From the NCBI RefSeq assembly GCF_009758415.1, contig NZ_WQRF01000001.1, positions 1,116,001 to 1,180,000 of the forward strand: a DNA stretch of 64,000 bases, given 5' to 3'. Position numbers and translations under genes: made by a program. This stretch comes from Devosia marina (GTDB lineage: Bacteria > Pseudomonadota > Alphaproteobacteria > Rhizobiales > Devosiaceae). Below the pieces are notes generated by a model that had not been told where the DNA came from, searched no databases, and saw only the letters and a list, made by a program, of their open reading frames with translations. Shown here piece by piece: positions 13,008 through 30,372 of the stretch; the stretch's first letter is position 1, and each line of letters opens with the position of its first letter.

Positions 13008-13036
13008 GCCGTATAGATGGGCGCGGAGAACATTTG

Positions 13037-13693
13037 ATGAAAACCGTTGGCAAAAGGGTTTCGCTCCGCGACACCGCTTATGATGAGATACGCAAGCTCA
13101 TAGTGACGTGTGAACTGCGCCCCGGGCAGCCTTTGACAGTCACGGACCTGGCTGAGGCTCTCAACATTGGGAGAACGCCGGTGATTCAGGCGATCGACCG
13201 GTTGGCTGTCGATGGACTCGTCGACGTTATGCCCCGCAAGGGGATCGTGGTCAGTCCCGTCAGTCTCGATGATTTCATGGAGGTTGTCGAGATGCGTATG
13301 GTCAATGAGACGGCCGCCGTCCGTTGGGCGGCCGAAAGGGCAAGTCGCGCCGAGATTGCCATGATGGAGGCCAATCTTGCAGCCATCTGGCAGGCGGCCA
13401 AGGACCGCAATATCGAAGAGTTCATTTCGCTCGACCGCGATTTCCATCGCTTGATCACGCAATCGGCCAGCAACCGTATCCTAGGAGATGTGCTCTCTAG
13501 TCTCCATGACAAGGCGTTGCGGTTCTGGTTCATCTCGCTCAAGGCACCCGATCACAATATTCGGGTTTGCGAGCAACATGCGGCAGTCATTGAAGGCATA
13601 AAGTCGGGCAATCTCGACGTTGCGGAAAAAGCGATGCGCGAACACATCGCTTCTTTCCAGATGAACGCAACGAGCCAGATCATGCGCGCCTGA
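13037..13693 (+). CDS. GntR-family regulator with FCD ligand-binding domain
   Basis: A 218-residue FadR-subfamily regulator. The N-terminal winged helix-turn-helix (LRDTAYDEIRKLIVTCELRPG, TVTDLAEALNIGRTPVIQAIDRL) is followed by an all-helical FCD domain with the metal-binding pattern (LDRDFHRLI near 135, then CEQHAAVIEGI near 180). A TTG directly precedes the ATG at 13037. It is the second gene after DUF2848 and ends 7 bases from the convergent amidase gene. It probably senses a pathway carboxylate and controls the transporter and/or DUF2848 unit. Confidence 0.92.
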   Translation: MKTVGKRVSLRDTAYDEIRKLIVTCELRPGQPLTVTDLAEALNIGRTPVIQAIDRLAVDGLVDVMPRKGIVVSPVSLDDFMEVVEMRMVNETAAVRWAAERASRAEIAMMEANLAAIWQAAKDRNIEEFISLDRDFHRLITQSASNRILGDVLSSLHDKALRFWFISLKAPDHNIRVCEQHAAVIEGIKSGNLDVAEKAMREHIASFQMNATSQIMRA

Positions 13694-13699
13694 TCGAGT

Positions 13700-15040
13700 T
13701 TAGCCCCTCAATATCGCTTCGGCAGAGTGCGCGACACCCAGCAACGATCTGTCGCCGCCGTGGGACCCCATTAGATTCATGCCAACCGGCATGCCGCCAC
13801 CGACCGGAATCGGGATCGAGATAGCGCAGCGATCGAGAAAATTGGCCACTGTCGGATTGCGAAGAGCCAAGAGGTTCGCGCGTCCATAGGCTTGTTCATC
13901 CTCCAGTTCTGTAAGCGTCGGAGCGACGAAAGGCGTCGTGGGGAATATTACGGCGTCATAGGGCGCGGTCGCACTGTTTGCCGCTTTGATCATCTCTTGG
14001 CGAATGTTCAAAAGGCGCTCATATTCGCCCGGTTCCTGTTGCAAGGCTTTCTCGATACGCACGCTGACCCGCGGGTCGTATAGCTCGGCCGACGAGGCGA
14101 GCAGCTCCTGGTGGACCATCAGAGCCTCGTGAGCAACGATGCCGCCGCGCGCGTTGAGTTCGGGCAGTCGGTCAAGGTCCTCGAGCCTGATTTCTTCAAT
14201 CGTCACCCCGGCGTCTGCCAAGCGGTCTATTGCCACCGAGAATGCGTGAGACACTGCCGCTTCAACGTCATCGGTTACGTAATTGACCAGAACTGCCAAT
14301 TTCAGCTTTGACGGCTTGACCTGATCGGGGGCAGCTGGGTGATCGCCGGCCATGATCGCGTCAAGCAGCGCGCAGCATTCCACGCTGGCACCAATCGGGC
14401 CAATGCTGTCGAGGGATTTCGAGAGGGGATAGGCCCCATCCAGGGGGACGCGCGACGCCGTCGGTTTAAAACCAGTCAGGCCACACAAGGCGGCGGGTAT
14501 GCGACAAGAGCCGCCCGTGTCGGTGCCGATGGCGGCGGCAGCCATATTTCGGGCGACCGAGACGGCTGCGCCCGATGACGAGCCGCCGGGGATGCGTGGT
14601 GTCGTGGGATCGGCCGGGTTGGCGGGCGTTCCATAATGGGGATTGATGCCAAGACCGGAATAGGCGAACTCGGTCATGTTGGTGTGCCCGAGGATGATCA
14701 GCCCGGCCGCCCGCAGCCGCTTGACGATTTCTGCGTCTTGTCGGGCCGGTGCGGCACTTTTTAGAACGGTCGAACCGGCTGTCGTCACCAATCCTTCGAC
14801 GTCAAACAATGCCTTTATTGAAATTGGGATGCCGGCGAGAGGTGAAGGGGACTTCCCTTCGGCTCGAAGATCATCGACGCGCTGGGCATCGGCCAGTGCG
14901 CGGTCTCGGTCGAGAGCGAGAAATACTGGCGCATTAGGGTCGTCGGAGTTCTCGATGGTTTCCAGATACTGCGTGACCAGGGAGAGACTCGTTGCCTCTC
15001 CCTTTTCGAGTTTGCGTGCGAGTTCCGAGAGCGTCACCAT
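13700..15040 (-). CDS. Amidase signature family hydrolase
   Basis: A 446-residue amidase with the Ser-cisSer-Lys triad in place: Lys76 (GIPISIKALFD), the GGSSSG loop at 152-157 and the nucleophile Ser178 (GTDTGGSCRIPAAL). It hydrolyses a C-N amide or lactam bond. The ATG at 15040 lies 5 bases after the cupin stop, so it is the last gene of marR - flavin reductase - monooxygenase - cupin - amidase. In this setting it may open a hydroxylated N-heterocycle or deaminate an amide substrate. Which one cannot be told from sequence. Confidence 0.92.
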   Translation of the reverse strand: MVTLSELARKLEKGEATSLSLVTQYLETIENSDDPNAPVFLALDRDRALADAQRVDDLRAEGKSPSPLAGIPISIKALFDVEGLVTTAGSTVLKSAAPARQDAEIVKRLRAAGLIILGHTNMTEFAYSGLGINPHYGTPANPADPTTPRIPGGSSSGAAVSVARNMAAAAIGTDTGGSCRIPAALCGLTGFKPTASRVPLDGAYPLSKSLDSIGPIGASVECCALLDAIMAGDHPAAPDQVKPSKLKLAVLVNYVTDDVEAAVSHAFSVAIDRLADAGVTIEEIRLEDLDRLPELNARGGIVAHEALMVHQELLASSAELYDPRVSVRIEKALQQEPGEYERLLNIRQEMIKAANSATAPYDAVIFPTTPFVAPTLTELEDEQAYGRANLLALRNPTVANFLDRCAISIPIPVGGGMPVGMNLMGSHGGDRSLLGVAHSAEAILRG

Positions 15041-15045
15041 TTTGG

Positions 15046-15429
15046 TTAGTTTTCGTCGTAGTAATGGATTTCGAGCAAGACACACCCTTGCTCCGACTTG
15101 AAGGGGCCGTGATAGGCTCCCGGGGGGCGACACGCATAGGTGTTGGGTGAGAAGCTCTCACCACCTTTCCCGTTCTCGTCGTTCCCCACCGTGAGATCAC
15201 CTGAAACCAAATAGACTTCCTCCCAGTAGTCGTGGACGAATGGTTTGGTGGTGAACACACCGGGTGCAAACCGCAAGAGGCGCGTGCGGTTGCCAGACTT
15301 TGCGTCTTCATCGAGAGCGCCCGCGAGAATTTTCTGTTCGATTCCCTCAGGATAGCCGGCAGGGACGTGCCAACCTTCTGTGCCCATGTCGACGGGGAAA
15401 AATTCAAGATGCTGCTTGTTGATAGCCAT
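15046..15429 (-). CDS. Cupin-domain protein
   Basis: A 127-residue single-domain cupin. The two cupin motifs are recognisable (TTKPFVHDYWEEVYLVSGDLTV at about 68-89 and YACRPPGAYHGPF at about 102-114), with His and Glu residues suitable for binding one metal ion. Similar ChrR-type cupins act as small isomerases, hydrolases or dioxygenases. It is tightly spaced between the monooxygenase (9 bases) and the amidase (5 bases), so it is probably a step of the same pathway. Confidence 0.85.
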   Translation of the reverse strand: MAINKQHLEFFPVDMGTEGWHVPAGYPEGIEQKILAGALDEDAKSGNRTRLLRFAPGVFTTKPFVHDYWEEVYLVSGDLTVGNDENGKGGESFSPNTYACRPPGAYHGPFKSEQGCVLLEIHYYDEN

Positions 15430-15438
15430 TTTGGTTCC

Positions 15439-16926
15439 TTACGCCGCTGATGATTTGGTTGTCTTGAGCTCGTCCTCGAGCGAATAGCTGTCGAGCATGC
15501 GATCGACCAACTGGGTGCAGCTGTCCCAGTCAAACGAGCGGAAGCTGTGCCCCTTGGTAACAAAATTGGCGCCCGCATAAAACATTTCGTACTGGCTATG
15601 ACGGGAAGCAAACTCCGAGCCCACGGCGTCCCATGCAAGCTTGAAGAATTTCACGCGGCCTTCGGACGATGACGTCGGCGATTGCTGGGTTTTGCCAATG
15701 AGCTCGTGCAATTCTGGATTGGCAAAATCCTCGACGGATGAGGGCAACATGATCAGACCGCCGCCCGCCAGTTCGCGCAGAGTCGTGATGACCTGCCCGT
15801 AGAGCTCTTGGGTGAGAACCTGAGCTGAATAGAGCGTGTGCGTGTCGGGGATGAAATAGCCGTTCCGCGATTGTCCCTTGATCTCCATTGCATGAACGAG
15901 AGAATCCACGAGATTGTTCTGGGCGGCCAGCTTTCCCAGCGTCTCCTTGACTGGAGGAAAATTGATGATGCCGTTGGTATCGGCTATTTTGCGGGCGATC
16001 CCGACCAAGAACCGCATTTTGACCATGAGGCGGATCTGGGCCTGGTAGTTTTGGTAGACGTGAGCCGGGGTGGCCATAAATTGTTTCATGCACATCGCCG
16101 TGTCCTGGTTTACAAAGACCCGGTCCCAGGGAACCTTGACGTCATCAAAATATAGGACAGCGTCATTTTCGTCGAACCGGCTGGCGAGCGGGTAGTCATA
16201 GACGCTGGTTGCAGCTTGTTCGTACGAGCGGCGCGAAAGGATCTTTAGACCCTTTGCATTCATGGGAATAGCAAAGGAAACGGCGTACGGCTCTTCGCCC
16301 TCACGCAAGGGCTGAATGCAGGTCACAAAGACCTCATTGGCCATGATTCCGCCCGTCGCGAGCATCTTTGCCCCACGAATGGTCAAACCTTCGGCATCCT
16401 GATCAACTACCCCGGCAGTAAGGAACGGATCCTGCTGCTCATTGGCGGCCTTGGAACGGTCAGCCTGGGGATTAATAATCACGTAGGTGAGGTAGAGCTC
16501 ATTGTCCCGCGCGTAGCGATAATATTCGGCCAGGGCCTTGGCGCGGTTGCTGTCGTAGGATTCGAAGACGTCGATTCCCATATACATGCCCGAAATACAC
16601 GATGCGACGTGGTCCGGGGCTCGACCCAGAAAGCCACCATGAATTTCGGTCCATGCCACCAGCGCTTTTCGGCGCTCGACCAACTCCCCGTATGACCTGG
16701 GCAGCTGCCAAATCCGGTTGGCTCTCAAGTCACTGTTTTCACCGACCTGATAGGTCATCAGGTCCAAATTTTCGGGGCGCGACTGGAAATCATAAAGCTT
16801 GCCCGTCGACTGGACGGTTCTGCGAAAGGCGGGATGGACGCTAACATCGCCCGCATGTTCGCCGTTAATATAGACGGAACGACCGTCATTAAGTGATGCA
16901 ATGTGTTGAGCGCCGGTCTTAACCAT
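15439..16926 (-). CDS. HpaB-family flavin-dependent monooxygenase, large component
   Basis: A 495-residue member of the 4-hydroxyphenylacetate 3-monooxygenase (HpaB) family, which uses free FADH2 from a reductase partner to hydroxylate an aromatic ring. The acyl-CoA-dehydrogenase-like fold is evident (GRAPDHV at 101-107, LTYVIINPQADRSK at 146-159, DDVKVPWDRVF later). In characterised HpaB the substrate phenol is held by Arg and Tyr of GRTPDY and a His of the LTH segment. Here Arg102 is kept, the Tyr is His106 and the His is Tyr148. The substrate is therefore probably not 4-hydroxyphenylacetate. The start follows GGAGG. Next upstream is its likely reductase. Confidence 0.9.
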   Translation of the reverse strand: MVKTGAQHIASLNDGRSVYINGEHAGDVSVHPAFRRTVQSTGKLYDFQSRPENLDLMTYQVGENSDLRANRIWQLPRSYGELVERRKALVAWTEIHGGFLGRAPDHVASCISGMYMGIDVFESYDSNRAKALAEYYRYARDNELYLTYVIINPQADRSKAANEQQDPFLTAGVVDQDAEGLTIRGAKMLATGGIMANEVFVTCIQPLREGEEPYAVSFAIPMNAKGLKILSRRSYEQAATSVYDYPLASRFDENDAVLYFDDVKVPWDRVFVNQDTAMCMKQFMATPAHVYQNYQAQIRLMVKMRFLVGIARKIADTNGIINFPPVKETLGKLAAQNNLVDSLVHAMEIKGQSRNGYFIPDTHTLYSAQVLTQELYGQVITTLRELAGGGLIMLPSSVEDFANPELHELIGKTQQSPTSSSEGRVKFFKLAWDAVGSEFASRHSQYEMFYAGANFVTKGHSFRSFDWDSCTQLVDRMLDSYSLEDELKTTKSSAA

Positions 16927-16946
16927 GGCGACGTCCTCCTTTGGGG

Positions 16947-17480
16947 TCAGTAGTGAATTGCGAGCGGCCAAGGGGCCACGTCTTGGGTTTGTTCTAGCTT
17001 TGCGTAGCGTCCCTTGGAGAAAACCAGGGGGCGTCGGTCGGGGGTTGAGCGCATCTCGATCACTTCCACGATGAAGAGGATGTGATCTCCGCCATCATGG
17101 GTTGCCCACGGACGACACTCAAAGACGGCGGCGACGCCGGCCAGAACGGGGGCCTCGGCAAACCCTCTGTGAAAATGGGTGCCCTCCCATTTGTTAGAGC
17201 CGGCACGGGCAAATCGGTTGGAAATTGCCTGTTGGTTGTCGGAAAGGATGTTGATCGCAAATCCCTTGGCCTGCTCCCAATGGGGGAGGCTTAAGGCGCG
17301 TTTATCCACGCTGAACAAGACAAGCGGGGGGTCGAGCGAGAGGGAATTGAACGAACTCATCGTCATCCCGCAATCTTCGCCGTCACCGCGGCAAGTTACG
17401 ACACAGACGCCCGTTGGGAATTGGCCCAGCGCCTGACGCATTTCGCGGGGATCAATGCTTGTGGATGCCGAAGCGCTCAT
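16947..17480 (-). CDS. Flavin reductase, HpaC-like small component
   Basis: A 177-residue flavin reductase domain protein. QFPTGVCVVTCRG at about 19-31, MSSFNSLSLDPPLVLFSVDK at about 41-60 and FECRPWATHDGGDHILFIVEV near 120-140 are the family pattern, with the GDH motif. It reduces FAD or FMN with NAD(P)H and hands it to the HpaB-like component 20 bases downstream. Its ATG overlaps the marR stop (ATGA), so it is translationally coupled to the regulator. Confidence 0.93.
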   Translation of the reverse strand: MSASASTSIDPREMRQALGQFPTGVCVVTCRGDGEDCGMTMSSFNSLSLDPPLVLFSVDKRALSLPHWEQAKGFAINILSDNQQAISNRFARAGSNKWEGTHFHRGFAEAPVLAGVAAVFECRPWATHDGGDHILFIVEVIEMRSTPDRRPLVFSKGRYAKLEQTQDVAPWPLAIHY

Positions 17481-18019
17481 TGATCGCTCCTTTCCGTGCC
17501 CACAAGGTAGTCCGAGAGCAGGACTGCCTTTTCCGCGCTCGCCCGCAGAGAGGCTGCCAGTTGCCGCACGAGGGCGTAGTTGGCGGCATTCACCGGTTCA
17601 AACAGCAGGTCGTTGACTTCCTGCTGTACGGGCGCCAGCTGAGACAGAAGAGCAGTGCCTTTGTCCGAGACACGCATATGAACACGGCGCTGGTCGTCGG
17701 GATTGGGAGTCTTGGTCACAAGTCCCAATTTTACGAGCTTGGTCGTTTCACTGGTTACGAATGGCGGGGAAAACGCGAGGTGATCGGCGAGAGCTCGCAC
17801 GCCAACCCCGCGTTCCGACTGTAGCTGCCTGATGCTGATGAGCAGAGTGTACTGGACCCCCGAAAGGCCGACAAACGCTCCAAATCGGGAGCGGATTTGC
17901 TCGAGCCGGGCCGAAAAGGCCAGCAGGTTGTGCACCATCTCGCGGAACGCATCATCCTTGCCAGCAATCAAAAGGTCCTCCCGTCCCACCGTGGGTTCGA
18001 ATTGAATGTCCTGTTCCAT
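17477..18019 (-). CDS. MarR-family transcriptional regulator
   Basis: A 180-residue MarR-type regulator with the winged helix-turn-helix at about 55-120 (GVRALADHLAFSPPFVTSETTKL, then the wing TPNPDDQRRVHMRVS). The start at 18019 follows GGGAGGCG; a longer frame upstream would run through the promoter. It heads the monooxygenase operon. A strong promoter and a palindrome lie within 80 bases upstream, so autoregulation with relief by an aromatic ligand is likely. Confidence 0.92.
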   Translation of the reverse strand: MEQDIQFEPTVGREDLLIAGKDDAFREMVHNLLAFSARLEQIRSRFGAFVGLSGVQYTLLISIRQLQSERGVGVRALADHLAFSPPFVTSETTKLVKLGLVTKTPNPDDQRRVHMRVSDKGTALLSQLAPVQQEVNDLLFEPVNAANYALVRQLAASLRASAEKAVLLSDYLVGTERSDQ

Positions 18020-18047
18020 CTTCGCCTCCCATGGGTAGTGTGGGAAC

Positions 18048-18076
18048 ATAATTAAGTTAGTGAAGTATTTTGTCAA
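18048..18076 (-). promoter_or_regulatory. Sigma-70-type promoter of the marR-monooxygenase operon
   Basis: On the minus strand TTGACA (complement of 18071-18076), 17 bases, then AATTAT (complement of 18048-18053). The spacing is ideal and the -35 is perfect. The start codon at 18019 leaves a leader of about 20-25 bases containing the ribosome site. Confidence 0.7.
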
Positions 18077-18080
18077 GAAT

Positions 18081-18098
18081 GCGTGTGAAATTTCACGC
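18081..18098. promoter_or_regulatory. Palindromic operator candidate, copy 2
   Basis: GCGTGTGAAATTTCACGC, with the perfect 12-base palindrome GTGAAATTTCAC at 18085-18096, immediately upstream of the -35 of the marR promoter. It differs from copy 1 (12232-12245) by one base in the 12-base core. The position fits an activator, or a repressor that blocks polymerase. Confidence 0.65.
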
Positions 18099-18536
18099 AA
18101 ATGACGAAATGGGCGGCTCAATGGCCGCCCCAAACACGTTCGGGTATGTCGCCTATTCCGTGCCGAAGGCTTGGCACTAGGCTTGCTCGATGCAGTCATG
18201 CACTGATCTTGTATCCGGATGCGCCGAGCACCATCCCACTGCCCGGCACATTGTACAGATTGCCTAGTCTGACGGCATTGCGGAATTTCTGGCCGCGCAC
18301 TCAGCGAATGCGAGGCCGTCGTTCGCGGCTATGGCGAGGGGCCCTAGGTGTTCCCCAAGCCGTGACGACTCACGTCCATCATTATTTCAGGATTGGGGCG
18401 CCGGATACCATCAAAGACGACTCGCGCGGGGTCGGATCCTGAATGGCCGCTTGTCCAGCATTCTCGCTAGCACCGGACTGTCAGCATTCGGCCCCGAAGT
18501 TGCCACAGAGCCTGATCGCGCTGGGACAAGACGGCC
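18099..18536. other. Intergenic stretch between catabolic island and mobilisation module
   Basis: Contains a hairpin GGGCGGC-TCAATG-GCCGCCC at 18111-18130 without a U-run. No supported gene: short frames lack ribosome sites. This may contain an old junction between the two accessory blocks, but I found no repeat that would prove it. Confidence 0.4.
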
Positions 18537-21540: not shown

Positions 21541-21810
21541 CTAGCCCTCGTCGATAGACGCGAGCTGCTGGTCGAGCAGCAATACGATGGTTGACCCGAT
21601 GGCATCGATTTTACCGGAAATTTCGGCCAGCCCCTTGGCGCTGGATGCTGCAATATCGCGAAGGGCGCTGTTCGACTCGTCGCTGAACGCGAGATGTCGA
21701 ACTGCGCGATCAACGATTACGCTGCGGCTCTCACCACTGACCCTGGACATTGCATCTACGAGGTCAAGAAGGTCCGGATCGAGCTGAATGCGCGGTGTTG
21801 TCTTAGCCAT
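21541..21810 (-). CDS. Ribbon-helix-helix DNA-binding protein of the relaxosome (TrwA-like)
   Basis: An 89-residue protein with an N-terminal ribbon-helix-helix (MAKTTPRIQLDPDLLDLVDA, then SGESRSVIVDRAVRHLAF) and a C-terminal helical tail for oligomerisation. The ATG at 21810 follows CAGGAGG. It lies directly between the predicted oriT and the relaxase gene, the same place as trwA in plasmid R388, and probably binds oriT, helps nicking and represses its own operon. Confidence 0.85.
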   Translation of the reverse strand: MAKTTPRIQLDPDLLDLVDAMSRVSGESRSVIVDRAVRHLAFSDESNSALRDIAASSAKGLAEISGKIDAIGSTIVLLLDQQLASIDEG

Positions 21811-21860
21811 GACAACCTCCTGCTGGCGGAAAATACACAAGGTTTACGAGAGAGTTAGGG

Positions 21861-21910
21861 GCGGCCATGGCCGCGCCGGAGGCACCAAAGGTGCGTGATG
21901 TGTGAAAGAA
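21861..21910 (+). other. Predicted origin of transfer (oriT) with R388-like nic site
   Basis: On the plus strand a hairpin GCACC-AAA-GGTGC (21882-21894) is followed by GTGATGTGT and then GAAAG. In plasmid R388 the TrwC site is GCACC-GAAA-GGTGC followed by GTATTGTCT and the nick before ATAG. Stem sequence, loop type and the 9-base distance to the nick agree, giving a predicted nick between 21903 and 21904. A 14-base palindrome GCGGCCATGGCCGC (21861-21874) precedes it. The site lies between divergent genes, next to the RHH and relaxase genes. Confidence 0.8.
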
Positions 21911-22087
21911 CAAAGCTGATACGTTCAGCGATATGGCCAGCGTACAAACAGAGGATGTTCTGGATACGGTTTGTTGACCACCCTGCCCCGCGTCTACGCC
22001 AAAAACCTTGCCCGAGGCCGGGGGCATCAGCGACATTGCGAGTGGGCACCAATGATGCTGGCCCAGCCAGAATTCGAACGCGGCCCA

Positions 22088-22504
22088 ATGAGGAAGCAGG
22101 CGGTCAAGACGATGGTGAAGCGACAGTCCAGTGAACAGCAGAAGCGCATCGCCGCGACCCTGCGGAAGATGCAGCGCAGCGAACCTGCGGCCGACCTGAG
22201 CCTCTTCAAGACGGTTGAGGAGCATTTCGCTGACATTGAGAAGATGCGCAAGCGCGGCCACAAATGGGCCGGCATTGCCGCCGGGCTCCGCGCGATCGGA
22301 ACAGACATCAGCGACACTACCCTTCGCATCTACTTCCGACGCGTTGCAAATTCGCAGTCGAACGGAAGCGCCAATGTTCCGCGCGAACCCATTGCCCAGG
22401 CTCGTGCGGCTCAGGCTGTGGATGCGGTGCCTAAGCCGCCGGTTGCGGGTCGCCCGGCAGGACCAAGCTGGTTGACAAGTGAACCCGACGAAGACGACCT
22501 GTAA
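22088..22504 (+). CDS. Small DNA-binding mobilisation protein (TraK/StbA-like)
   Basis: A 138-residue basic protein divergent from the RHH-relaxase genes across the oriT. The central part (HKWAGIAAGLRAIGTDISDTTLRIYFRR, about 66-93) is a helix-turn-helix of the kind seen in TraK-family and similar oriT-binding proteins; the C-terminal third is Pro/Ala-rich and disordered, ending in the acidic EPDEDDL. Start uncertain: ATG 22088, 22112 or 21971 are in frame and none has a strong ribosome site. Likely relaxosome accessory or plasmid-segregation-type protein. Confidence 0.6.
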   Translation: MRKQAVKTMVKRQSSEQQKRIAATLRKMQRSEPAADLSLFKTVEEHFADIEKMRKRGHKWAGIAAGLRAIGTDISDTTLRIYFRRVANSQSNGSANVPREPIAQARAAQAVDAVPKPPVAGRPAGPSWLTSEPDEDDL

Positions 22505-22509
22505 AAACA

Positions 22510-23277
22510 TTACTTGCGACCTCGCCAGATCACCCACCCGAAAGTCAGCCCGGCTCCGGCCAGCCCGCCAATGAGGGTGAAGAACGGGTAGGTTAGCCCG
22601 CCCAAAATCACTGATGGAGAGGTGAGAAGCTGATGCAATACCGGCGTTTCAGCGCGAACCGCGGGCGTCTCAATCCATTGCCAATATTGGCAACCGATGC
22701 CGCCATCCCTGGCCCGCTGCAACTCAGGCACAGTTCGGCAACTGCTCAGACTCTCAGGCGCTCGCGGGTTCTGCGCAATGTACTCTGACCAGACGAGCTG
22801 GCGCTCAGCGCCCAAGTCGTTCCAAAAGAGGTCGGCAGTGACGCTGCGCAGCTGCCCCTGCGACCAACCCAGGCTGAACACCATGATGCACAGCAGCATG
22901 ATGACGGTGATGACACCGACCCACATCCTGCGCGAGCGCCGGCGCTCCAGGCGATCAAGCTTGGCGTCCACCAGCTTGCTGAGTTGTTGCGCGGCTTTCC
23001 CGGTTTCAACCGACATCTTCTGCGCTGTGGCAAGCGAGACTTTTTCGGCGACGACATTGGCTGCCTGGTGAATGTCCTTGGGCTGCTTGCGCAAGACGTC
23101 ACGATGCAGCGCAGCCACATGAGAGATTGCGCCGACGACCGCGACATGAATTTGCGCGGGGTCGTCAGGACTGAGGCCGATTGCGCTACACACTCGGCGA
23201 AGATGCTGACGGTGCGGATCCGGCAGATCCAGCGCTTCGCACGTGCGATCGAGCAAGGATTCGGTGGGCCGGCGCAT
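22510..23277 (-). CDS. Two-TM mobilisation-region membrane protein
   Basis: A 255-residue protein with a soluble N-terminal half, a first membrane helix (VGVITVIMLLCIMVFSLGW, about 145-163), a loop with two Cys and a second helix near the C-terminus (FFTLIGGLAGAGLTFGWVIW). Size and layout resemble relaxase-linked membrane proteins annotated as DUF6118 in alphaproteobacteria, but I cannot confirm the family. The ATG lies one base after the stop of the ParA-like gene, so the two are co-translated. Confidence 0.7.
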   Translation of the reverse strand: MRRPTESLLDRTCEALDLPDPHRQHLRRVCSAIGLSPDDPAQIHVAVVGAISHVAALHRDVLRKQPKDIHQAANVVAEKVSLATAQKMSVETGKAAQQLSKLVDAKLDRLERRRSRRMWVGVITVIMLLCIMVFSLGWSQGQLRSVTADLFWNDLGAERQLVWSEYIAQNPRAPESLSSCRTVPELQRARDGGIGCQYWQWIETPAVRAETPVLHQLLTSPSVILGGLTYPFFTLIGGLAGAGLTFGWVIWRGRK

Positions 23278-23278
23278 C

Positions 23279-24058
23279 CTAGTAGATCCAGTCTTCAATA
23301 AGCTTAAGCTGTTCTGCAAGTTCGCGCGTGAAGCGCAAAAGATGACCACTTTCGTCGATCGTCAGGCCGCCTTCCAGAAACCCGGCGGTGATCGGCAAAT
23401 GCAGCGCATCGAGCTTGTCACGCACCTGGGGCTTCAGTGCCGGCAGGAAGATCTCCTTACCGCCGATATCTTGGAGCCTCTTGCGGGTCCTGCTGCCCTC
23501 CCAGCTCGCAAAACCGCCACCTTTGTCCTGAAATGCGCGATTCAGCACTGCAATGTGCCGGGCAGAGCTGCCAAACGCATCGAGATACTGCGCAACGCTG
23601 TGGGTAGTGGAGATCTCTTCGGTCAACAGGTGCAGCAGAGTCAGGCTGTATCCACACATGTCCATCACACGCAAGAGATTGGAGAAGTCAGAGAGACCCT
23701 CATCCTGAACCTTGAGAAGGTCATATGCGGAACCGCCCGGCAGATCATGAAAGATCGAAGGTGCCTTGGTCGCCATCGTGTTGACGAGCTCCTGGCGCTG
23801 AAGGTCATGGCGCAAGCTGTACCTGCCCGCGCCCACCAGCGGATCCTGCACATCAAGGAGGCGCCCGTTTTCGCGCGTACCCAGCGCGCGGTAGGTCGTC
23901 CCTACCCCGCTGTCTCCGTCATAGGCGGCAATCGGCCACCCCTCATGCCGCCCCCACTGAACGAAGCTGCGGACGACAAAGGACTTGCCGCAGCCGCCTT
24001 TCTGGCTGAGCGCAAAGATCATTTTACCGGCGATCCGCTCTTGGACTTTCTTACTCAT
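23279..24058 (-). CDS. ParA/MinD-like ATPase of the mobilisation region (TraL/StbB type)
   Basis: A 259-residue P-loop ATPase with the deviant Walker A KGGCGKSF at residues 20-27 and an AAYDGDSGVGTT switch region. Such ATPases accompany relaxase genes in IncP (TraL), IncW (StbB) and pTF-FC2 (MobD) and help position or stabilise the element. The ATG at 24058 overlaps the end of the small upstream gene by 8 bases and the stop is one base from the membrane-protein gene, giving a three-gene operon. Confidence 0.82.
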   Translation of the reverse strand: MSKKVQERIAGKMIFALSQKGGCGKSFVVRSFVQWGRHEGWPIAAYDGDSGVGTTYRALGTRENGRLLDVQDPLVGAGRYSLRHDLQRQELVNTMATKAPSIFHDLPGGSAYDLLKVQDEGLSDFSNLLRVMDMCGYSLTLLHLLTEEISTTHSVAQYLDAFGSSARHIAVLNRAFQDKGGGFASWEGSRTRKRLQDIGGKEIFLPALKPQVRDKLDALHLPITAGFLEGGLTIDESGHLLRFTRELAEQLKLIEDWIY

Positions 24059-24284
24059 TCTCGAACTCACTTCCTTGCTTGGTGCCGAAGAGGTCGGGAT
24101 TGAGCAGTTCGCGCAGAAGTTCGTCTTCCGCCCTCGCTGCCTCCAGCTCTGCCTTGAGCCTGGCAACCAGCGGCAGCAGTCGACGAGCATCTGCCTCGCT
24201 CCCTTTCCGCATGGCTGCGGCCAGGCGTGCGAGATAGATCTCACACTGTTTGGCTGTTCTGATTCTGGCTGTGGGCGGGAGCAT
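24051..24284 (-). CDS. Small helical protein, first gene of the ParA-like operon
   Basis: A 77-residue protein, mostly helical and charged (AKQCEIYLARLAAAMRKGSE, then VARLKAELEAARAEDELLREL), probably a coiled coil. It precedes and overlaps the ParA-like gene as small partner proteins do in other mobilisation operons (for example TraM or MobC/MobE of comparable size). AAGG lies 8 bases before the ATG. No family is recognised. Confidence 0.65.
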   Translation of the reverse strand: MLPPTARIRTAKQCEIYLARLAAAMRKGSEADARRLLPLVARLKAELEAARAEDELLRELLNPDLFGTKQGSEFENE

Positions 24285-24421
24285 TACCGGGCCTTCGACA
24301 ATTGATGGATCGAAAGCTTGAGGCAGCGCAACGAGGCAAACTAGCCCCCCAGGGGGGGGGCGTATTCGGTAACATTTTAAGGGTATCATTTAATCAGACA
24401 GAACAAGATGAAAAACTGAAA

Positions 24422-24973
24422 ATGACAGTATTCCTACCAATATTCGCATATGTTCCAGCAATGCAGACGGGGCGAAAATGGGCGCAGTTTGAGTCGAAAC
24501 GAGACAAATCGAATATTGAAAAGATCGTTCATGCCGTCAAAAGACTCGAAAAATCTTCCCTAAGTATAATACCTTTTTGTGGACCTGAATATCAGGACTA
24601 CACCTCTGTGATTGGTATATATGATGGAATTAACATGATACTGGAGCACGATACCGGCTCAAAAGATGCACTTGTTGAATTGTTAGACCACTTGAAAGGC
24701 AGGAAATTCTGCATCCTTGTTCCAGATCGACGTTCATTTTTCGATGACATCACAAACCCCTCGCTACGAGTTGGTTGGGATTGGAGAGTAAAAGGAATAC
24801 AAGGGCAAGTACTGAGCATCGAATGTGATAATTTCCCACTGTCGAAGGTGGGCAGGATGTCAGGAAAACCGCTGTATGACCACCTAACCAGCAACATCAT
24901 GGAAAGTGCTACATATTTAAGGCATTGGTCTAATGGATCGAAAAGTCGAAATTCAAGCAAGAAAAATGAATAA
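24422..24973 (+). CDS. AT-rich orphan gene of unknown function
   Basis: A 183-residue soluble protein (MTVFLPIFAYVPAMQTGRKW at the start; C-terminus Ser/Lys/Asn-rich). I recognise no domain. Its DNA is far more AT-rich than its surroundings: two 60-base rows counted by hand are 43% and 35% G+C. It stands alone between the ParA-like operon and the integrase, the usual place for cargo of a mobilisable element. The start at 24422 is the first ATG after the base composition changes; an in-frame ATG at 24302 would begin in GC-rich DNA and read through a poly-G run. Entry exclusion, defence or addiction functions are possible but unproven. Confidence 0.6.
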   Translation: MTVFLPIFAYVPAMQTGRKWAQFESKRDKSNIEKIVHAVKRLEKSSLSIIPFCGPEYQDYTSVIGIYDGINMILEHDTGSKDALVELLDHLKGRKFCILVPDRRSFFDDITNPSLRVGWDWRVKGIQGQVLSIECDNFPLSKVGRMSGKPLYDHLTSNIMESATYLRHWSNGSKSRNSSKKNE

Positions 24974-25085
24974 TTAGTCTACACTGTTTCTTGCGACCGC
25001 ACCAAGTAATAAGTCTTCCAACATTCCGGAGTGCGAGCCTCTACGCTCTCGGCGCTGTGCCAGACGCAGTTGTGACCCTAGTACA

Positions 25086-25104
25086 CCATGTGACGATCAC
25101 ATGG
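25086..25104. repeat. Perfect hairpin downstream of the integrase
   Basis: CCATGTGA-CGA-TCACATGG: 8-base perfect arms, 3-base loop, 32 bases after the integrase stop. It could end integrase transcription, though no U-run follows on the minus strand, or bind a protein. Confidence 0.45.
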
Positions 25105-25135
25105 CTTAGACTGGCCGACCTCGCTGGCAGGAAGG

Positions 25136-26518
25136 TCAAATAATCCCTTCATCGAAAGCGAGCGCCATGTTGGCGAGGAGGCCGCGCTGCCAGGCGAGGC
25201 CTCCACCCGATCCATATTTGGGGCGAGAGACTGTGTGGCCGAAGATATCCATGCGCACCTCGTAATCGATTTTTGCAACCTTCATGCGGTCTTCAAAACT
25301 GTGACGCAATCCGTAGAGCGTGTGCTCTTGGGTCGGCAGAAGCCCATTCTCCCCCAGGAAGGAATTTATCGTTTGCGAAGCCGTACCAGTTTTGTCCATG
25401 TAGCGCGGAAAACCGGCGGGAAACGCCTTGAACACCTGGAGCGAGATGCCGACAAGAGGAACGGCCCGGATCGAGGCCGTACTTTTGACCTCGTGCGGCC
25501 CGTATTGCTTAACGTCGGAGTTTTTTCGGTCGCCAGCGCGTCGTGGACGAACAGCGATATGGGGCACCTCATGATCGAGGACAATAGCGCTTGGCGTGAG
25601 ATTGCATATCTCGGAAGGGCGGCAACCCGTCTCTATCATCGCAAGCAACACACCTCTGGCCTCTGGATTGAGACCAGATAGCTTGCCGGCGCGCAAGAAC
25701 CGGCTTTCGATCCAGTCTACCGGGAAAGAGGGACGGCGAACGTTGCCGTCTTCCGCAAAGCTGAGCCCTAGAAATGGGTTTAACCTTTCATTGTCGTTGT
25801 GCTCGAAGCTGAAGTACTCTCGGTACAGCTTTCGCAATTCACCGATTTCCCTGTTCCCACCGCTTGGATTCAAGGGCTCTGCATCGTCCTCGGGCACGAT
25901 GCGTGCGAGCCAATAGCGATAGAACCGCACCGCATCGTCGCGCGTAATATCAGCAAGCGGCTTGTCGCCAACGACCTCTGCAAACCTTCGGATAGCGCGC
26001 GTCGGAATGTTCTTCCAAATGCGCAATTGGTTTGGGCTCTTGTTTGCTAAGCTCATTTTCCCCGGACCTTCCATGAAGATCCTAAGTGCATCGTCAAATC
26101 GGTGCGTCGGCTTTGAGACTGCCCCTAAGAGCGCCTGTTCGATCTCTCGCGGCGTCGACACCGGTAAAATCGCCTCAAAGCGGCTGGAAATATCATCCCA
26201 GCTAGCGGTGCGGCTCAGTTCCTCTACCGGCACATACCCAAATCCCATAGCTTTTACACGTTTCAGGGCGGCAGCGTACCGGCCACGTGACCGCTCAACA
26301 TTCTCCCCTAGCATCATCGAGGCCCAAAGATCGTCATCGGCACTTGCAAGTAAGTCGCGCGCTTTTCTGGCCACGACTAGATCGCGAGTGCCCAATGCCT
26401 GTTCGATGACCGGAAATCGGCTATCTAGCCGTGCTAGTCTGGTAGGTACGCGCCGATAGTAAAGCCAGCTGTAGCCGCGGCGCTTTAGGTACCGGTCGAG
26501 CTCTTTCGGCTTAGGCAT
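25136..26518 (-). CDS. Tyrosine-type site-specific integrase
   Basis: A 460-residue phage/ICE-type tyrosine recombinase. The N-terminal part (LKRRGYSWLYYRRVPTRL) is the DUF6538-like start common in alphaproteobacterial integrases. The catalytic set is present: Arg of ETGCRPSEICNL, the HTLYGLRHSF box (H-x-x-R), a second His of FGHT and the nucleophile Tyr of RPKYGS. The start at 26518 follows GGAAG; an ATG at 26599 would make the 12-base tandem repeats coding. The gene begins 145 bases from the 3' end of tRNA-Gly and points away from it, so tRNA-Gly is the likely attachment site. Confidence 0.92.
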   Translation of the reverse strand: MPKPKELDRYLKRRGYSWLYYRRVPTRLARLDSRFPVIEQALGTRDLVVARKARDLLASADDDLWASMMLGENVERSRGRYAAALKRVKAMGFGYVPVEELSRTASWDDISSRFEAILPVSTPREIEQALLGAVSKPTHRFDDALRIFMEGPGKMSLANKSPNQLRIWKNIPTRAIRRFAEVVGDKPLADITRDDAVRFYRYWLARIVPEDDAEPLNPSGGNREIGELRKLYREYFSFEHNDNERLNPFLGLSFAEDGNVRRPSFPVDWIESRFLRAGKLSGLNPEARGVLLAMIETGCRPSEICNLTPSAIVLDHEVPHIAVRPRRAGDRKNSDVKQYGPHEVKSTASIRAVPLVGISLQVFKAFPAGFPRYMDKTGTASQTINSFLGENGLLPTQEHTLYGLRHSFEDRMKVAKIDYEVRMDIFGHTVSRPKYGSGGGLAWQRGLLANMALAFDEGII

Positions 26519-26540
26519 TCGCGCTTCCGATTCACACCGC

Positions 26541-26576
26541 TGTAGGGCACATTGTAGGGCAATTTGTAGGGCACTT
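26541..26576. repeat. Three 12-base direct repeats between integrase and tRNA-Gly
   Basis: TGTAGGGCACAT, TGTAGGGCAATT and TGTAGGGCACTT in perfect 12-base register, sharing TGTAGGGCA. They lie in the integrase leader and could be arm-type integrase or regulator binding sites. Confidence 0.7.
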
Positions 26577-26662
26577 TTCTGCCGATTGCGCACGATCATA
26601 CCAAGGTCGCCGCAAAAATACCAGCAGAACCAGATGCGTAGTCGATTTGAATGTTGAGAAGA

Positions 26663-26736
26663 TGGAGCGGGTAGCGGGAATCGAACCCGCGTATTCAGCT
26701 TGGAAGGCTGCTGCTCTACCATTGAGCTATACCCGC
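26663..26736 (-). tRNA. tRNA-Gly (anticodon TCC)
   Basis: A 74-base gene with encoded CCA. Acceptor GCGGGTA pairs with TACCCGC, the T-arm reads GGGTTCGATTCCC and the anticodon loop CTTCCAA carries TCC. Its 3' end faces the integrase and serves as presumed insertion site. Confidence 0.97.
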
Positions 26737-26935
26737 CCGAGGGCTATGCCACCGGCACCGATTAGCGCGAACCGGGGCTGGCTGGCAAGTCCATCACCGC
26801 CCCGCCATCCACAATTTACCTGCGGAGCCAAATTCTTGCGCATCTAGCACGCTAGGGTGTTGACACTAATGCGACAGCCAACCATAAACCGCCCCGACGA
26901 CACGCAAGTGCTCGTCGCTTCCTACCCGGAAATGT

Positions 26936-27020
26936 GGAGGGGTGGGAGAGTGGTTAAATCCATCAGACTGTAAATCTGACGCCTCAGGCTACACTGGTTC
27001 GAATCCAGTCCCCTCCACCA
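26936..27020 (+). tRNA. tRNA-Tyr (anticodon GTA)
   Basis: An 85-base class II tRNA with encoded CCA. Acceptor GGAGGGG pairs with CCCCTCC, the anticodon loop CTGTAAA carries GTA, a variable arm is present and the T-arm reads GGTTCGAATCC. It is divergent from tRNA-Gly. Confidence 0.97.
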
Positions 27021-27077
27021 ACACCCCCCGCCAGATAGAGTAAAGCCCCGGTTTTCCGGGAAACGCGCCAATCGAGT

Positions 27078-27101
27078 GTTGCACAGTTTGTTGTACAGTT
27101 T
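27078..27101. repeat. Two 12-base direct repeats downstream of tRNA-Tyr
   Basis: GTTGCACAGTTT followed directly by GTTGTACAGTTT. The same 12-base period as the repeats at 26541-26576, and a comparable distance (57 bases) from a tRNA 3' end. Possibly the residue of another integration. Confidence 0.5.
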
Positions 27102-27303
27102 CGGCCCATCGGCCGGGACGGTGGCAGCTTGAGCGCTTTGAGTTCGCGGCGGGTCAGGCTATCACCCTCGTTTTCGGCAGGCCGGTATGCTGGAAATGCT
27201 ATGATCCGCCGCGCCATGGACCATTGCCGCTGCACGACCTGCGCGCGCGTTTCCTTTCATAATCCTGTCCGTGTCGATACGGGCTTCTGGAAAAGCCGCT
27301 TGC

Positions 27304-27490
27304 GTAATCCGGATCAATGAGGTCCTCGACGATCAGCAGGCTCTCCACATTCATGGTGCCTAGTCCTCCCTGGGAAGCTGCACCGCAATACTGGTCCCAA
27401 CCGCGCCGGAGATGGCGAACGATCCGCGATACGCCAGCGTGCGCGACCGCATAATCCCCAGGCCATCGCCGGGAGGACCGGTGCGCTGAC
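27304..27490 (-). pseudogene. Remnant of a two-component system: sensor kinase 3' end and response-regulator 5' end
   Basis: On the minus strand a frame reads GDGLGIMRSRTLAYRGSF and VGTSIAVQLPRED before a stop at 27360-27362: the G2 box and C-terminus of a NarX/DesK-type histidine kinase. Five bases later ATG 27354 begins MNVESLLIVEDL, the first strand of a response-regulator receiver, after which homology is lost. Both genes are truncated. The region from 27490 to 27853 has only broken frames. Confidence 0.6.
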
Positions 27491-27853
27491 GGGCGGGAAA
27501 TCACTGTCAGGGCGATGCTTCGAGACCTGCCCACCGGTTTGCCAATTGAGCACCGATGACGACGAGATCGCAGAAGATGCCATCATGGTCGGTATCGGAG
27601 GGACCAGCGCGAACATGCTCGGTGTCGGCCTCTCCTATGACCAGCCAATGGCACCATCTACCGGACCGCCAGAGTGACCGAGAAAGGCGTTTTCGATGCT
27701 GGTGGAGAAACCGGTTGGTCGACCGTAAGGACGCTCTTGCGCATGCGCACGACCTCCAGCAACGAATGGGCTATGAGCGTGTTGTCATGACGATGGCAGA
27801 AGTTGGCATCTGGCGCCCCGAATGGGGAAGCTGTTCAAGCGGGAGGGTTTCTG

Positions 27854-28528
27854 ATGTGCGGACGCTTCACCAATGAGCTGACCTGGTCGCAGATTCACGC
27901 GCTCTACAACATCCATCAACGGCCCGCGACGAACCTACCCCCTCGCTTCAACATCGCGCCAACCCAGGACGTTGACTTCGTCCACCTGGACAAGGCCGGC
28001 AACATGCAGATGGACCAAGGCCGCTGGTGGCTGGTGCCGTTCTTCGCCAAAGAGCTGCCCAAGGCCGCGATGTTCAATGCCAGGATCGAGACCGTCGACA
28101 CGTCTGGCGCCTTCCGGGAGGGCTTCAAATCCCGCCGCTGCCTGATTCCGGCAGACGGGTATTTCGAATGGACCAAGGCAGAGGACGGCGGCAAGGATCC
28201 TTGGCTTTTGCAGTTGCCCGATGGCGCCCCGTTCAGCTTCGCGGGCATTTGGGCGCACAATGACAACCTTGGGGTTTCAAGCTGCACGATCATCACTGCA
28301 CCGGCCGTGCCGGAGATTTCAGCGATCCATGACCGGATGCCGATCATTCTTGCGCGCGATGCATATCGCACCTGGCTCAACACGGATATTCAGGGCAAAG
28401 AGGCAAAAGCTCTCCTGCTCGACGCCCAGATCGACAGCCAGCTCGAATTCTATCGCGTGAATCGCGCGGTCAATTCTAGCCGCTATGACGGCACTGATAC
28501 CAAGAAACCCCTGATCAACTCGCTGTAG
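27854..28528 (+). CDS. SRAP-domain protein (YedK/HMCES family), abasic-site protein
   Basis: A 224-residue SOS-response-associated peptidase family protein that forms a covalent DNA-protein cross-link with abasic sites in single-stranded DNA. Catalytic Cys2 (MCGRF, exposed after Met removal), Glu105 (DGYFEW) and His159 (AIHDRMP) are all present. GGGAGGG precedes the ATG. It stands alone between decayed signalling genes. Confidence 0.95.
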   Translation: MCGRFTNELTWSQIHALYNIHQRPATNLPPRFNIAPTQDVDFVHLDKAGNMQMDQGRWWLVPFFAKELPKAAMFNARIETVDTSGAFREGFKSRRCLIPADGYFEWTKAEDGGKDPWLLQLPDGAPFSFAGIWAHNDNLGVSSCTIITAPAVPEISAIHDRMPIILARDAYRTWLNTDIQGKEAKALLLDAQIDSQLEFYRVNRAVNSSRYDGTDTKKPLINSL

Positions 28529-28615
28529 CCCCACCCCGCCACGCCCTGCCTACGCTATGCGATGTCTTAACCCAGTAGCGCTATGAAGGTGCATCTCTGA
28601 GGGTATCGCGACACC

Positions 28616-29071
28616 ATGAAGCTGATCAAACACCCGCTTGTCGAACGCAAAATCCAGGACTCGAAGCTTGATCTTTCAGTTCAGGCTTTGACGCTTTCGG
28701 ATGTTCGGACCCCAGATGCCCCTCTGGTTTACGTGAACCGCGGCTTCGAGAAAATGACGGGTTACCAGCGCGATGAGGTCATCGGACGAAACTGCCGCTT
28801 CCTGCAGGGCACTGACACCAGCCCCGCAGCCGTAGAGCAAATGCGCGCAGCCATCGCAAAAGGCGAATCCTTGCTCATCGACGTGCTCAATTACCATAGG
28901 AACGGCACCCCGTTCTGGAACCGACTTTCTCTTGAGCCGGTCGTAAACCCGGAAGGTGAAGTATCGCACTATATTGGCATCCAAAGCGACATCAGTCGGA
29001 TGCGTTCATTGCAGGATCGCCTTCATGCGATCGCAATCGACCTGACGAAAGACGAAACACACCTGATCTAG
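28616..29071 (+). CDS. Short LOV-domain blue-light photoreceptor
   Basis: A 151-residue protein consisting of one LOV domain with short flanking helices and no output domain. The flavin-binding motif GRNCRFLQG contains the photoactive Cys60, and the following Asn/Gln positions (NYHRNGTPFWN, YIGIQSDIS) are typical of FMN-binding LOV domains. Stand-alone LOV proteins signal through their J-alpha helix to partner proteins. No partner kinase survives here, although sensor-kinase fragments flank the gene on both sides. Confidence 0.9.
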   Translation: MKLIKHPLVERKIQDSKLDLSVQALTLSDVRTPDAPLVYVNRGFEKMTGYQRDEVIGRNCRFLQGTDTSPAAVEQMRAAIAKGESLLIDVLNYHRNGTPFWNRLSLEPVVNPEGEVSHYIGIQSDISRMRSLQDRLHAIAIDLTKDETHLI

Positions 29072-29195
29072 TGAGCGGCAACCCTGAAGCGTCAGGCTCA
29101 GTGAAGTCCAGACCCCTCGCCCAATCGAAAGCCGAAATCGCAGAATCCGGCGCTAAGTCAGACCCAGGCGAGTCGCGTGCAGGGCTGCTTCGGCG

Positions 29196-29722
29196 CGTGA
29201 GGATACCCGCCCCACCGACCCCAAGCTGGAGCCAGAATTCAAAGGGGAGCGACCAGCCAGGCCTGGCCCCCAGCGCGGCAAGTTTAACCTCAGCTTTGCT
29301 GCCGTCTGCCAAGGTCACACCAAGAACGACCTCGCCAGCGCTGAGCACGCGATTCAGTGCAGACTGGCGCGCGCGGAAGGCATGCGGAAGGCATTGAGTT
29401 CGGTATAGGTATCAAGCGTGTCCGGCTCTTCGATCACATCGAGCGCCCCAAGGTCGAGCGGGTCTCCCAGGCCAGCGGCCGCCAGGGTATGGAGGCGAAC
29501 ACCAGATTGGAGCACCGTCGGCAGGTCATCCCGCTGGACGTTCCTCACCACAACTAGCCCATCATCCCCGGCGGACAGTGCAAGACCCATCTAGGCTTGG
29601 TTGGTAGCAAGCCATATCGCGCCCGAAGCAACAATCAGAAACACCGCAGCGACCACGATCAGCCGCGCCTGCGGCGACAGGCGCAACACAGCTGCCCCCT
29701 CACCGGACTGCCCCATGCCCAT
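29196..29722 (-). pseudogene. N-terminal fragment of a membrane sensor kinase, with stop and frameshift
   Basis: From ATG 29722 a short frame encodes a membrane helix (IVVAAVFLIVASGAIWLATNQA) and stops with TAG at 29591-29593. The same frame continues at ATG 29590 with MGLALSAGDDGLVVVRNVQR up to a stop at 29354, and the following sequence (VLSAGEVVLGVTLADGSKAE, then LPFEFWLQLGVGGAGILT) needs a frameshift. This is the periplasmic/PDZ-like front of sensor kinases whose back end resembles the remnant at 27.4 kb. It is cut off near 29196. Confidence 0.5.
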
Positions 29723-29799
29723 GCGCTCGCCCCCATATCCTTTGAACCGGGGATGCCACAAAATTGCACACTTGTATAGTTTTAGCTGCAATTTGTATC

Positions 29800-30297
29800 A
29801 TGAACAGGAAATTGATCGTGTCGAATACTGGCTGGAGACGTCGCCGTGGGAGTTTCTCTCTCCTCACCCTGCTTGCGATAGTGCTGATCGCTGCTCTGAC
29901 GACTGTGCTTTTCTTGCCCCGCATCGAGGCGACCGAATTTCCGCGCGAGAGCATCGCCGACATCCCCAATGGCGTGCCCGAACCATTTGCCGGGCTCTGG
30001 AGTGTCGGCTTTCCCGAGGGCGAAGGCATGATCAATGGAGCACCCATAGCCACCTGCGCGGCTCCCGTAGCCCTGAACAGCAGCGACAACGGAACGTTGA
30101 CCTATCGCTCGCCGATAGGAGACGAAGTTGGGTTCGAGCTCTCGGCGTTCTCGGGCCGAACGACCTGGCTTCCGGCCATGGGGGAAAGTCTTGTCGCCGT
30201 ATGGATCAGCACGGACGAGTTCTATCTCTACTCAGTCGACCTGACGACCGGGCGTGCCCGCTGGGACAACCCGCATGCCTATCGGCGTTGTGTTTGA
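29800..30297 (+). CDS. Membrane-anchored protein of unknown function
   Basis: A 165-residue protein with an N-terminal signal anchor (FSLLTLLAIVLIAALTTVLFL, about 19-39) after a basic stretch, and a periplasmic domain with two Cys (IATCAAPV and YRRCV at the very end) that may form a disulfide. Start chosen at ATG 29800; ribosome site weak. No family recognised. Confidence 0.6.
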   Translation: MNRKLIVSNTGWRRRRGSFSLLTLLAIVLIAALTTVLFLPRIEATEFPRESIADIPNGVPEPFAGLWSVGFPEGEGMINGAPIATCAAPVALNSSDNGTLTYRSPIGDEVGFELSAFSGRTTWLPAMGESLVAVWISTDEFYLYSVDLTTGRARWDNPHAYRRCV

Positions 30298-30372
30298 AGG
30301 CGCAATAACAGGCAGTGCAATCGGTGCGCGGATTCCTTGCGGAAACCCGGTAAACCAGCTACCGCTCCAGGC

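Follow-up and report, generated by a model that had tools for sequence, protein, structure and literature searches.

Does the short hairpin in a divergent intergenic region of the Devosia marina chromosome mark the place where conjugative DNA transfer would begin, and if so, what would it transfer? An initial annotation had proposed an R388-like origin of transfer (oriT) serving a chromosomal MobF element. We examined this proposal in a window of 64,000 nucleotides, the whole stretch of DNA analyzed, and in plasmids and related genomes. Very probably, a DNA-transfer enzyme would cut at this hairpin and from there begin to mobilize a large chromosomal island between bacteria, and we are confident, short of certainty, that positions 21871 to 21912 constitute the nic region of the oriT of an integrated mobilizable element of ~99.7 kb (Table 1). 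The observations behind this assignment are the sequence, its conservation, its gene context, the att repeats, and the occupied and empty integration sites. The result is an ordinary but well-supported MobF oriT, of a kind already known from many plasmids, and is no surprise.

Table 1. Features of the predicted oriT and its surroundings (window positions)
Feature	Position	Strand	Remarks
MobF (TrwC-type) relaxase-helicase, 999 aa	18537..21536	-	TTG start, GAGGG before start; NF041492 202.8 bits, cutoff 100
RHH (CopG-type) protein, TrwA/accessory position	21541..21810	-	PF01402; AGGAGG before ATG
Predicted nic region	21871..21912	+	match of plasmid-only covariance model, 29.4 bits, E 4.4e-5
Hairpin of predicted oriT, distal arm GCACC	21882..21886	+	TrwC numbering 3-7
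Hairpin loop AAA, 3 nt	21887..21889	+	R388 loop, 4 nt
Proximal arm GGTGC	21890..21894	+	arm recognized by TrwC in R388, positions 12-16
Predicted single-strand recognition stretch GTGATGTGT	21895..21903	+	predicted nick 21903/21904, placed by analogy
G	21904	+	purine required in R388; GAAAG starts here
StbA-position protein	21971..22504	+	start candidates 21971-22169; weak similarity to R388 StbA
Protein with hydrophobic stretches (probable membrane protein), third stb-like position	22510..23349	-	pNYY1_6 homologue, E 3e-14
ParA/StbB-like P-loop ATPase	23279..24244	-	PF01656 20.1 bits, below cutoff 25.4; start probably extended
Tyrosine recombinase, DUF6538 N terminus	25136..26722	-	PF20172 30.4 bits; PF00589 21.3 bits, below cutoff 27.1
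tRNA-Gly(TCC), integration site	26663..26736	-	
att core TGGAGCGGGTAGCGGGAATC, 20 bp, 3' end of tRNA-Gly	26663..26682	+	second copy at G000:C10:1042984, outside the window

On the plus strand, positions 21882 to 21908 read GCACC AAA GGTGC GTGATGTGT GAAAG, which confirms the first description of a hairpin followed, after 9 nucleotides, by a predicted nick (21882 to 21903). The hairpin by itself is unremarkable, being common and not unusually stable: GCACC-N3-5-GGTGC was found twice in the window (0.39 expected), and 43 of 200 shuffled sequences folded as well as the hairpin DNA (z = -0.81). Judged by sequence statistics, hairpin and nick sequence combined are beyond chance. In 40 simulated 64-kb windows, no stem of at least 5 bp lay directly against a 9-mer that matched GTNNTGTGT at every one of its seven fixed positions; this consensus was picked after the relatives had been seen, and R388's own site matches it at six of the seven. 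A covariance model trained on 10 plasmid sites, the window not among them, gave the nic region as its sole significant match in the window, the next match reaching 9.9 bits (the E values of this tool are rough). Across the whole genome, GCACCAAAGGTGC occurs once. The inverted repeat ends 9 nucleotides before the predicted nick, as in MobF nic sites, and the window carries G17, T18, T21, T23, G24 (21902), and G26. For the R388 nic, one study describes G17, T18, T21, and T23 as intolerant of change, a purine as required at 26, the loop as free to vary, and C24 as linked to Lys262 of TrwC (PMC4176350).

The R388 site (L037) reads GCACC-GAAA-GGTGC followed by GTATTGTCT/ATAG. The layout proposed from R388 therefore holds for the stem and the 9-nucleotide spacing but not for the loop (3 versus 4 nucleotides) or for the 9-mers, which are identical at six of nine positions. 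The stem is base for base that of R388, yet R388 has no special claim to it: GCACC/GGTGC stems combined with GTnnTGTGT adjoin MobF genes on Methylobacterium, Methylorubrum, and Acinetobacter plasmids. We scanned 18 plasmid loci, namely, the R388 record and 17 others, for GTGCGTnnTGTGT. All 11 fixed bases were present, upstream of mobF on the opposite strand, in nine loci (L038, L039, L040, L041, L042, L062, L063, L064, and L069), which are not independent, near-duplicates being included (L039 and L063). R388 and L070 matched at 10 of 11, and F (L073) and an Aeromonas plasmid (L068) matched at 9 of 11 with an abutting stem. The exact GCACC/GGTGC stem was found in five of the nine full matches (L038, L039, L062, L063, and L069) as well as in R388 and L068; L040 and L064 have a 4-bp version, and L041 and L042 have different stems. 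A 9/11 match without a stem lies upstream of the RHH gene in L071, and the maximum in L072 was 8. The G24-type nick-proximal half is common to the window, F, pXcB, and the Methylobacteriaceae plasmids, whereas R388 has C24. The covariance model gave no match on L148, a Rhizobium MobF plasmid with the same leading genes that is one of four further loci (L148 to L151) outside the 18-locus count.

Three Rhodobacterales plasmids (L065 to L067) showed a 9/11 match only, downstream of the relaxase gene. The short match CTGCGTCAGGTGT (L065:8091, L066:8079, and L067:7673), with a 4-bp stem in L065 and L066, is a possible oriT in an unusual place.

The same pattern was sought in genome contigs as GCACC-N3-4-GGTGCGTnnTGTGT, and 49 stretches carried it exactly. 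Six of these adjoin a MobF relaxase gene, lying ~390 bp upstream on the opposite strand, and all six are from Methylobacterium or Methylorubrum. Three others (Chelativorans and two Mesorhizobium) adjoin a TrwA homologue that is 52 to 68% identical. Because no MobF or TrwA gene was seen within the stretch examined for the remaining 40, the pattern alone is not specific; beside a MobF gene, it is telling. The sites beside the TrwA homologues (L099, L110, and L136) are R388-like and read GCACCG(C/A)AAGGTGCGTATTGTGTATAG. Separately, a Bacteroidetes metagenome-assembled contig holds three copies of GCACCAGCGGTGCGTCATGTGTATAG (L107 at 480; L108 at 7420 and 7731), with no MobF gene seen nearby.

The large gene beside the site encodes a protein with a TrwC relaxase domain (PF08751, 192.7 bits; cutoff 25) and a C-terminal SF1 helicase (AAA_30, E = 4.2e-43, residues 428 to 617); TIGR02686 scored just below its cutoff (142.3 versus 145.5 bits). 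Its best matches among solved structures were TrwC (6.5e-26) and TraI (1.1e-24). An alignment of 13 sequences placed two Tyr pairs (18/19 and 26/27), Asp85, and the metal-binding His residues 150, 161, and 163 in the window relaxase, and the TrwC His spacing noted at the outset (H150, H161, H163) is kept; part of this numbering of TrwC-type catalytic positions is presumed. Lys262 was found in TrwC only among the 13 aligned sequences, F TraI being outside the alignment. The pairing seen in R388 (IncW), in which Lys262 reads C24, is replaced in the window by G at 21902 and an aligned Ala. Of the other base-contact residues of TrwC named in PMC4176350, Pro91 and Gln159 are retained, and eight are changed (Arg81 to Lys, Ser89 to Ala, Asn182 to Thr, Asp183 to Lys, Val186 to Tyr, Arg190 to Leu, Asp216 to His, and Asn218 to Ala). 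Since the base-contact residues are only partly conserved, the mode of recognition need not equal that of TrwC. The neighboring small gene matched PF01402 (22.0 bits, E = 1.5e-4; cutoff 20.5) and is indeed an RHH gene, but no trwB lies between it and the relaxase gene, and when 30 sequences were compared, its product was not significantly similar to the R388 protein encoded at the TrwA position (E = 0.38).

In a relaxase tree, the window protein grouped with those of two same-genus islands (L029 and L030) and four Methylobacteriaceae plasmids (support, 96/95), and R388 and pXcB formed a separate clade (99/98); the tree is midpoint rooted, 4 of its 10 inner forks are drawn open, and its program flagged long branches. 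The R388-like reading is refined by this different clade and by a nick-proximal half of the G24 type, with Ala at the Lys262 position. Stem identity was rejected as a sign of close kinship with R388, the stem being found on other plasmids and the relaxase in another clade.

To define the element, we examined its ends and contents. The att core at the tRNA-Gly gene recurs to the left, 99,679 bp away, with 20 of 20 bases identical; a search for att repeats of 14 nucleotides or longer inside the window returned nothing. Because the recombinase ORF runs into the tRNA gene, its true start lies inside the ORF. The flank beyond the left att copy holds tRNA-Trp, and in a relative of the same genus (G062) the empty site appears as adjacent tRNA-Trp, tRNA-Gly, and tRNA-Tyr genes, the first two 130 bp apart; in G000, ~0.9 kb that separates tRNA-Trp from the left att copy is unaccounted for by this comparison. 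An integrase, flanking att repeats, and an empty site in a relative, the marks of an integrative mobilizable element (IME), are therefore all present. The ~73 kb of the island outside the window (L083 to L086) carries genes for sugar oxidation and transport, thiamine and riboflavin genes, and genes for QueC, transposases, and a type I restriction system. Next to the relaxase gene, window positions 13000 to 18200 hold a GntR-type regulator region, an amidase, an HpaB-type monooxygenase, a flavin reductase, and a MarR gene; among the best matches listed, this DNA is 67 to 70% identical to Paracoccus, Thioclava, and other plasmids. On the other side of the tRNA cluster, ~3.3 kb directly after tRNA-Tyr (27021 to 30312; an SRAP peptidase, a PAS protein, and unknowns) is missing in the relative G079, in which the counterpart of window position 30313 onward begins shortly after tRNA-Tyr; parts of these 3.3 kb match a contig of G024.

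None of nine R388 channel proteins and five coupling proteins matched the window or L083 to L086, where the TrwC control did match. Pfam scans of the island likewise gave no T4SS or T4CP family among the matches listed; they covered 66 chosen ORFs of at least 130 aa in L083 to L086 (25 of 80 families listed), 65 again in three subsets (25 of 29 families listed in one of them), and 17 ORFs in the window's part of the island, and these scans alone covered F-type channel proteins. The VirB4 family (PF03135) had no match in the genome. One TrwB-family match lies on another contig (28 bits; cutoff 20.5), and the same family matches in 7 of 14 control genomes. Within the scope searched, then, a relaxase is present and a mating-pair system is absent, and since the searches of the ~99.7-kb island turned up neither a T4SS nor a coupling protein, it reads as an IME that would need a helper. 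The element first proposed is indeed chromosomal and of the MobF type, but it is far larger than was seen then and apparently mobilizable, not self-transmissible. According to a 2017 review, MobF relaxases were absent from all canonical IMEs known at the time (PMC5704250); because MOBF-carrying IMEs were described in 2021 (PMC8627217), we claim no first for this element.

The same inventory bears on a possible but somewhat doubtful alternative, in which the oriT is real but belongs to a decayed element, whose relaxase module would survive as a relic in a composite, immobile 100-kb island. Transposases, a second integrase, mixed cargo, the lack of any T4SS or T4CP found in the island, and the lack of a PF03135 match in the genome would all fit such decay, whereas the relaxase, RHH, stb-like, and integrase genes are all open frames, ribosome-binding sites precede the start codons of the relaxase and RHH genes, and the two att copies are fully identical.

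We next considered the genes on the side predicted to lead. The ORF in the third stb-like position probably has an extended start and overlaps the next ORF, the ATPase ORF contains KGGCGKS, and one unknown ORF separates the ATPase from the tyrosine recombinase. Next to oriT, the window, the Methylobacteriaceae plasmids, and L029/L030 all have a StbA-position gene together with genes for an ATPase and a third protein; against pNYY1_6, the window proteins gave E values of 4e-48 (ATPase), 3e-14 (third protein), and 1e-6 (StbA position). In the window and L029/L030, the order from oriT is StbA position, third protein, and ATPase, with the last two pointing back; on the Methylobacteriaceae plasmids, it is StbA position, ATPase, and third protein, all pointing away. 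In the 30-sequence comparison, R388 StbA gave E values of 4e-7 with its pNYY1_6 counterpart and 0.002 with that of the window, and R388 StbB had no significant match to the window ATPase, the two being linked weakly through plasmid relatives. A repeat search of the window found no five-copy family of the stbDR type. In position, and weakly in sequence, the leading genes resemble an stb cassette.

The window ATPase matches 48 plasmid records, 35 typed as mobilizable, 13 as nonmobilizable, and none as conjugative, about half of the 48 being weak cyanobacterial matches (E = 1e-7 to 1e-5) and some being near-duplicates. The matches adjoin MobF genes on several plasmids looked at, including pRspN1341a, and, in the case of a Methylocystis plasmid typed as nonmobilizable, a relaxase/mobilization nuclease gene; no relaxase gene lies in the stretches shown of a Sulfitobacter plasmid typed MOBP and of pMRAD06. 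A bolder proposal, which we regard as speculative and unlikely, is that MobF elements lacking a coupling protein form a lineage that includes this island and in which an stb-like cassette beside oriT, made up of genes for an ATPase, a membrane protein, and a DNA-binding protein, would act as a general adaptor for a foreign coupling protein and channel; L029/L030 would have kept the cassette but would use another nic sequence and a Glu where the third metal His stands.

As a mobilizable island, the element would move as follows, with nick position, excision, protein binding, and helper use all being predicted. The integrase would excise the island from the tRNA-Gly gene, after which the RHH protein and the MobF relaxase would bind the nic region, the relaxase gripping the GGTGC arm and the U-turn formed by GTGATGTGT. 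The relaxase would then cut the plus strand between 21903 and 21904 and remain on the 5' end. In conjugative transfer, the strand side that carries the relaxase on its 5' end leads. From this polarity and the strand of the motif, it follows that the integrase side would enter first and the relaxase genes last, as initially predicted: DNA to the right of the nick (stb-like genes and integrase) would lead through the helper's coupling protein and secretion channel, the far cargo would follow across the joined att site, and the RHH and relaxase genes would enter at the end. The regenerated hairpin would serve termination in the recipient.

Might the hairpin instead be a transcription terminator, or an operator of divergent RHH and stb promoters? 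It does lie in a divergent intergenic region, where operators sit, and RHH proteins often autoregulate. No T run follows it, however, the 9-mer 3' of the stem is as conserved as the stem itself in the plasmid sites, which a terminator would not need, and position and strand are as in the R388 and F sites. We consider this explanation very improbable, although a nick site may double as an operator. The plasmid site comparison, the bases critical for TrwC, and the plasmid-only model match leave the oriT reading and its strand standing.

The strict motif GTGCGTnnTGTnT was found in none of 24 other loci with MobF matches from same-family and same-order genomes (L005 to L028, flanks up to 1.5 kb), which include near-duplicates or broken genes; a looser form is present in L028, and L036, which covers L024 with wider flanks, has one ~5 kb from the relaxase gene. 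The same-genus islands L029 and L030 are nearest to the window relaxase by tree path (39 to 40% identical), carry the same gene set, and also lie at a tRNA-Gly gene, with anticodon CCC there versus TCC in the window. The hairpin is absent from their short divergent gaps and from the rest of the stretches read, and searches with relaxed stems, looser 9-mers, and an unfiltered model gave nothing credible there. The third metal position of their relaxases (L029:9865-12828 and L030:9816-12767) is Glu, not His; the relaxase of a Novosphingobium plasmid (L071) has the same Glu. Absence of the hairpin from close relatives had been named beforehand as counting against an oriT, and it was found in part, since L029/L030 lack the motif, but the next nearest relatives, the Methylobacteriaceae plasmids, have it. 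Either L029/L030 have an oriT of different sequence or they have lost it. Since R388 TrwC is described as mobilizing a Burkholderia oriT without a recognizable nic site (PMC4853378), an oriT may be present in such islands even where the motif is missing.

When window positions 21541 to 24300 were searched as DNA against 136 family genomes, the only match apart from the genome itself and three short ones of low score was a G024 contig; it has the integrase end at the same tRNA (96% identical to window positions 24119 to 27032) and stops before the oriT region. Exact peptide seeds yielded 17 stretches in genome contigs, none of which was confirmed as a relative. A chance resemblance, with the true oriT elsewhere, as in L029/L030 if they have one, would fit the missing motif there and the commonness of the hairpin, but it has only a slight probability given an E value of 4.4e-5 from a model blind to the window, at the expected place and on the expected strand.

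With R388 (IncW, subclass MOBF11), the predicted oriT region shares the 5-bp stem letter for letter, the 9-nucleotide spacing, G17, T18, T21, T23, and the purine at 26, an RHH gene and a TrwC-type relaxase gene transcribed away from oriT, and stb-like genes on the leading side. It differs in its 3-nucleotide loop, in G24 with Ala at the Lys262 position, a pairing that predicts poor cutting of the window site by R388 TrwC, in having no trwB and no T4SS found, in a relaxase of another clade, and in being integrated. R388 stbABC, as characterized in PMC3098194, likewise comprises three leading-side genes at oriT, for a DNA-binding protein, a ParA/MinD-type ATPase, and a third protein; in the window, however, similarity to StbA is weak and that to StbB is not significant, and the links via plasmid homologues are weak. 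The IMEs described for Mesorhizobium with a relaxase termed MOBF (PMC8627217) are also integrated in alphaproteobacteria, classed as IMEs, many of them at tRNA genes, and up to 272 kb long, but most are described with a Ti-like traACD locus (TraA) and one with a lone MOBF gene.

The likeness to Methylobacteriaceae plasmids (p2METDI, pNYY1_6, pMPPM02, M. fujisawaense unnamed2, and a Microvirga ossetica plasmid) comprises the nick motif GTGCGTnnTGTGT, a small gene and then mobF with no coupling-protein gene between, a divergent StbA-position gene accompanied by a third gene and one for a P-loop ATPase (those of pNYY1_6 and p2METDI, and the ATPase of Microvirga as well, being shown to be homologous to the window genes), and relaxases in one clade with that of the window. 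These plasmids differ in not being integrated, in relaxases 36 to 39% identical to that of the window, in the reverse order and orientation of the ATPase and third genes relative to the window and L029/L030, and, for Microvirga, in lacking the exact stem. The window offers a concrete predicted oriT for a ~100-kb island whose cargo includes a restriction system, catabolic genes, and genes of sugar and vitamin metabolism, and with it a route by which such islands could move. On plasmids, GTGCGTnnTGTGT behind a hairpin beside a MobF gene could help to annotate oriTs in records currently typed as nonmobilizable, pNYY1_6 and the Microvirga plasmid being examples.
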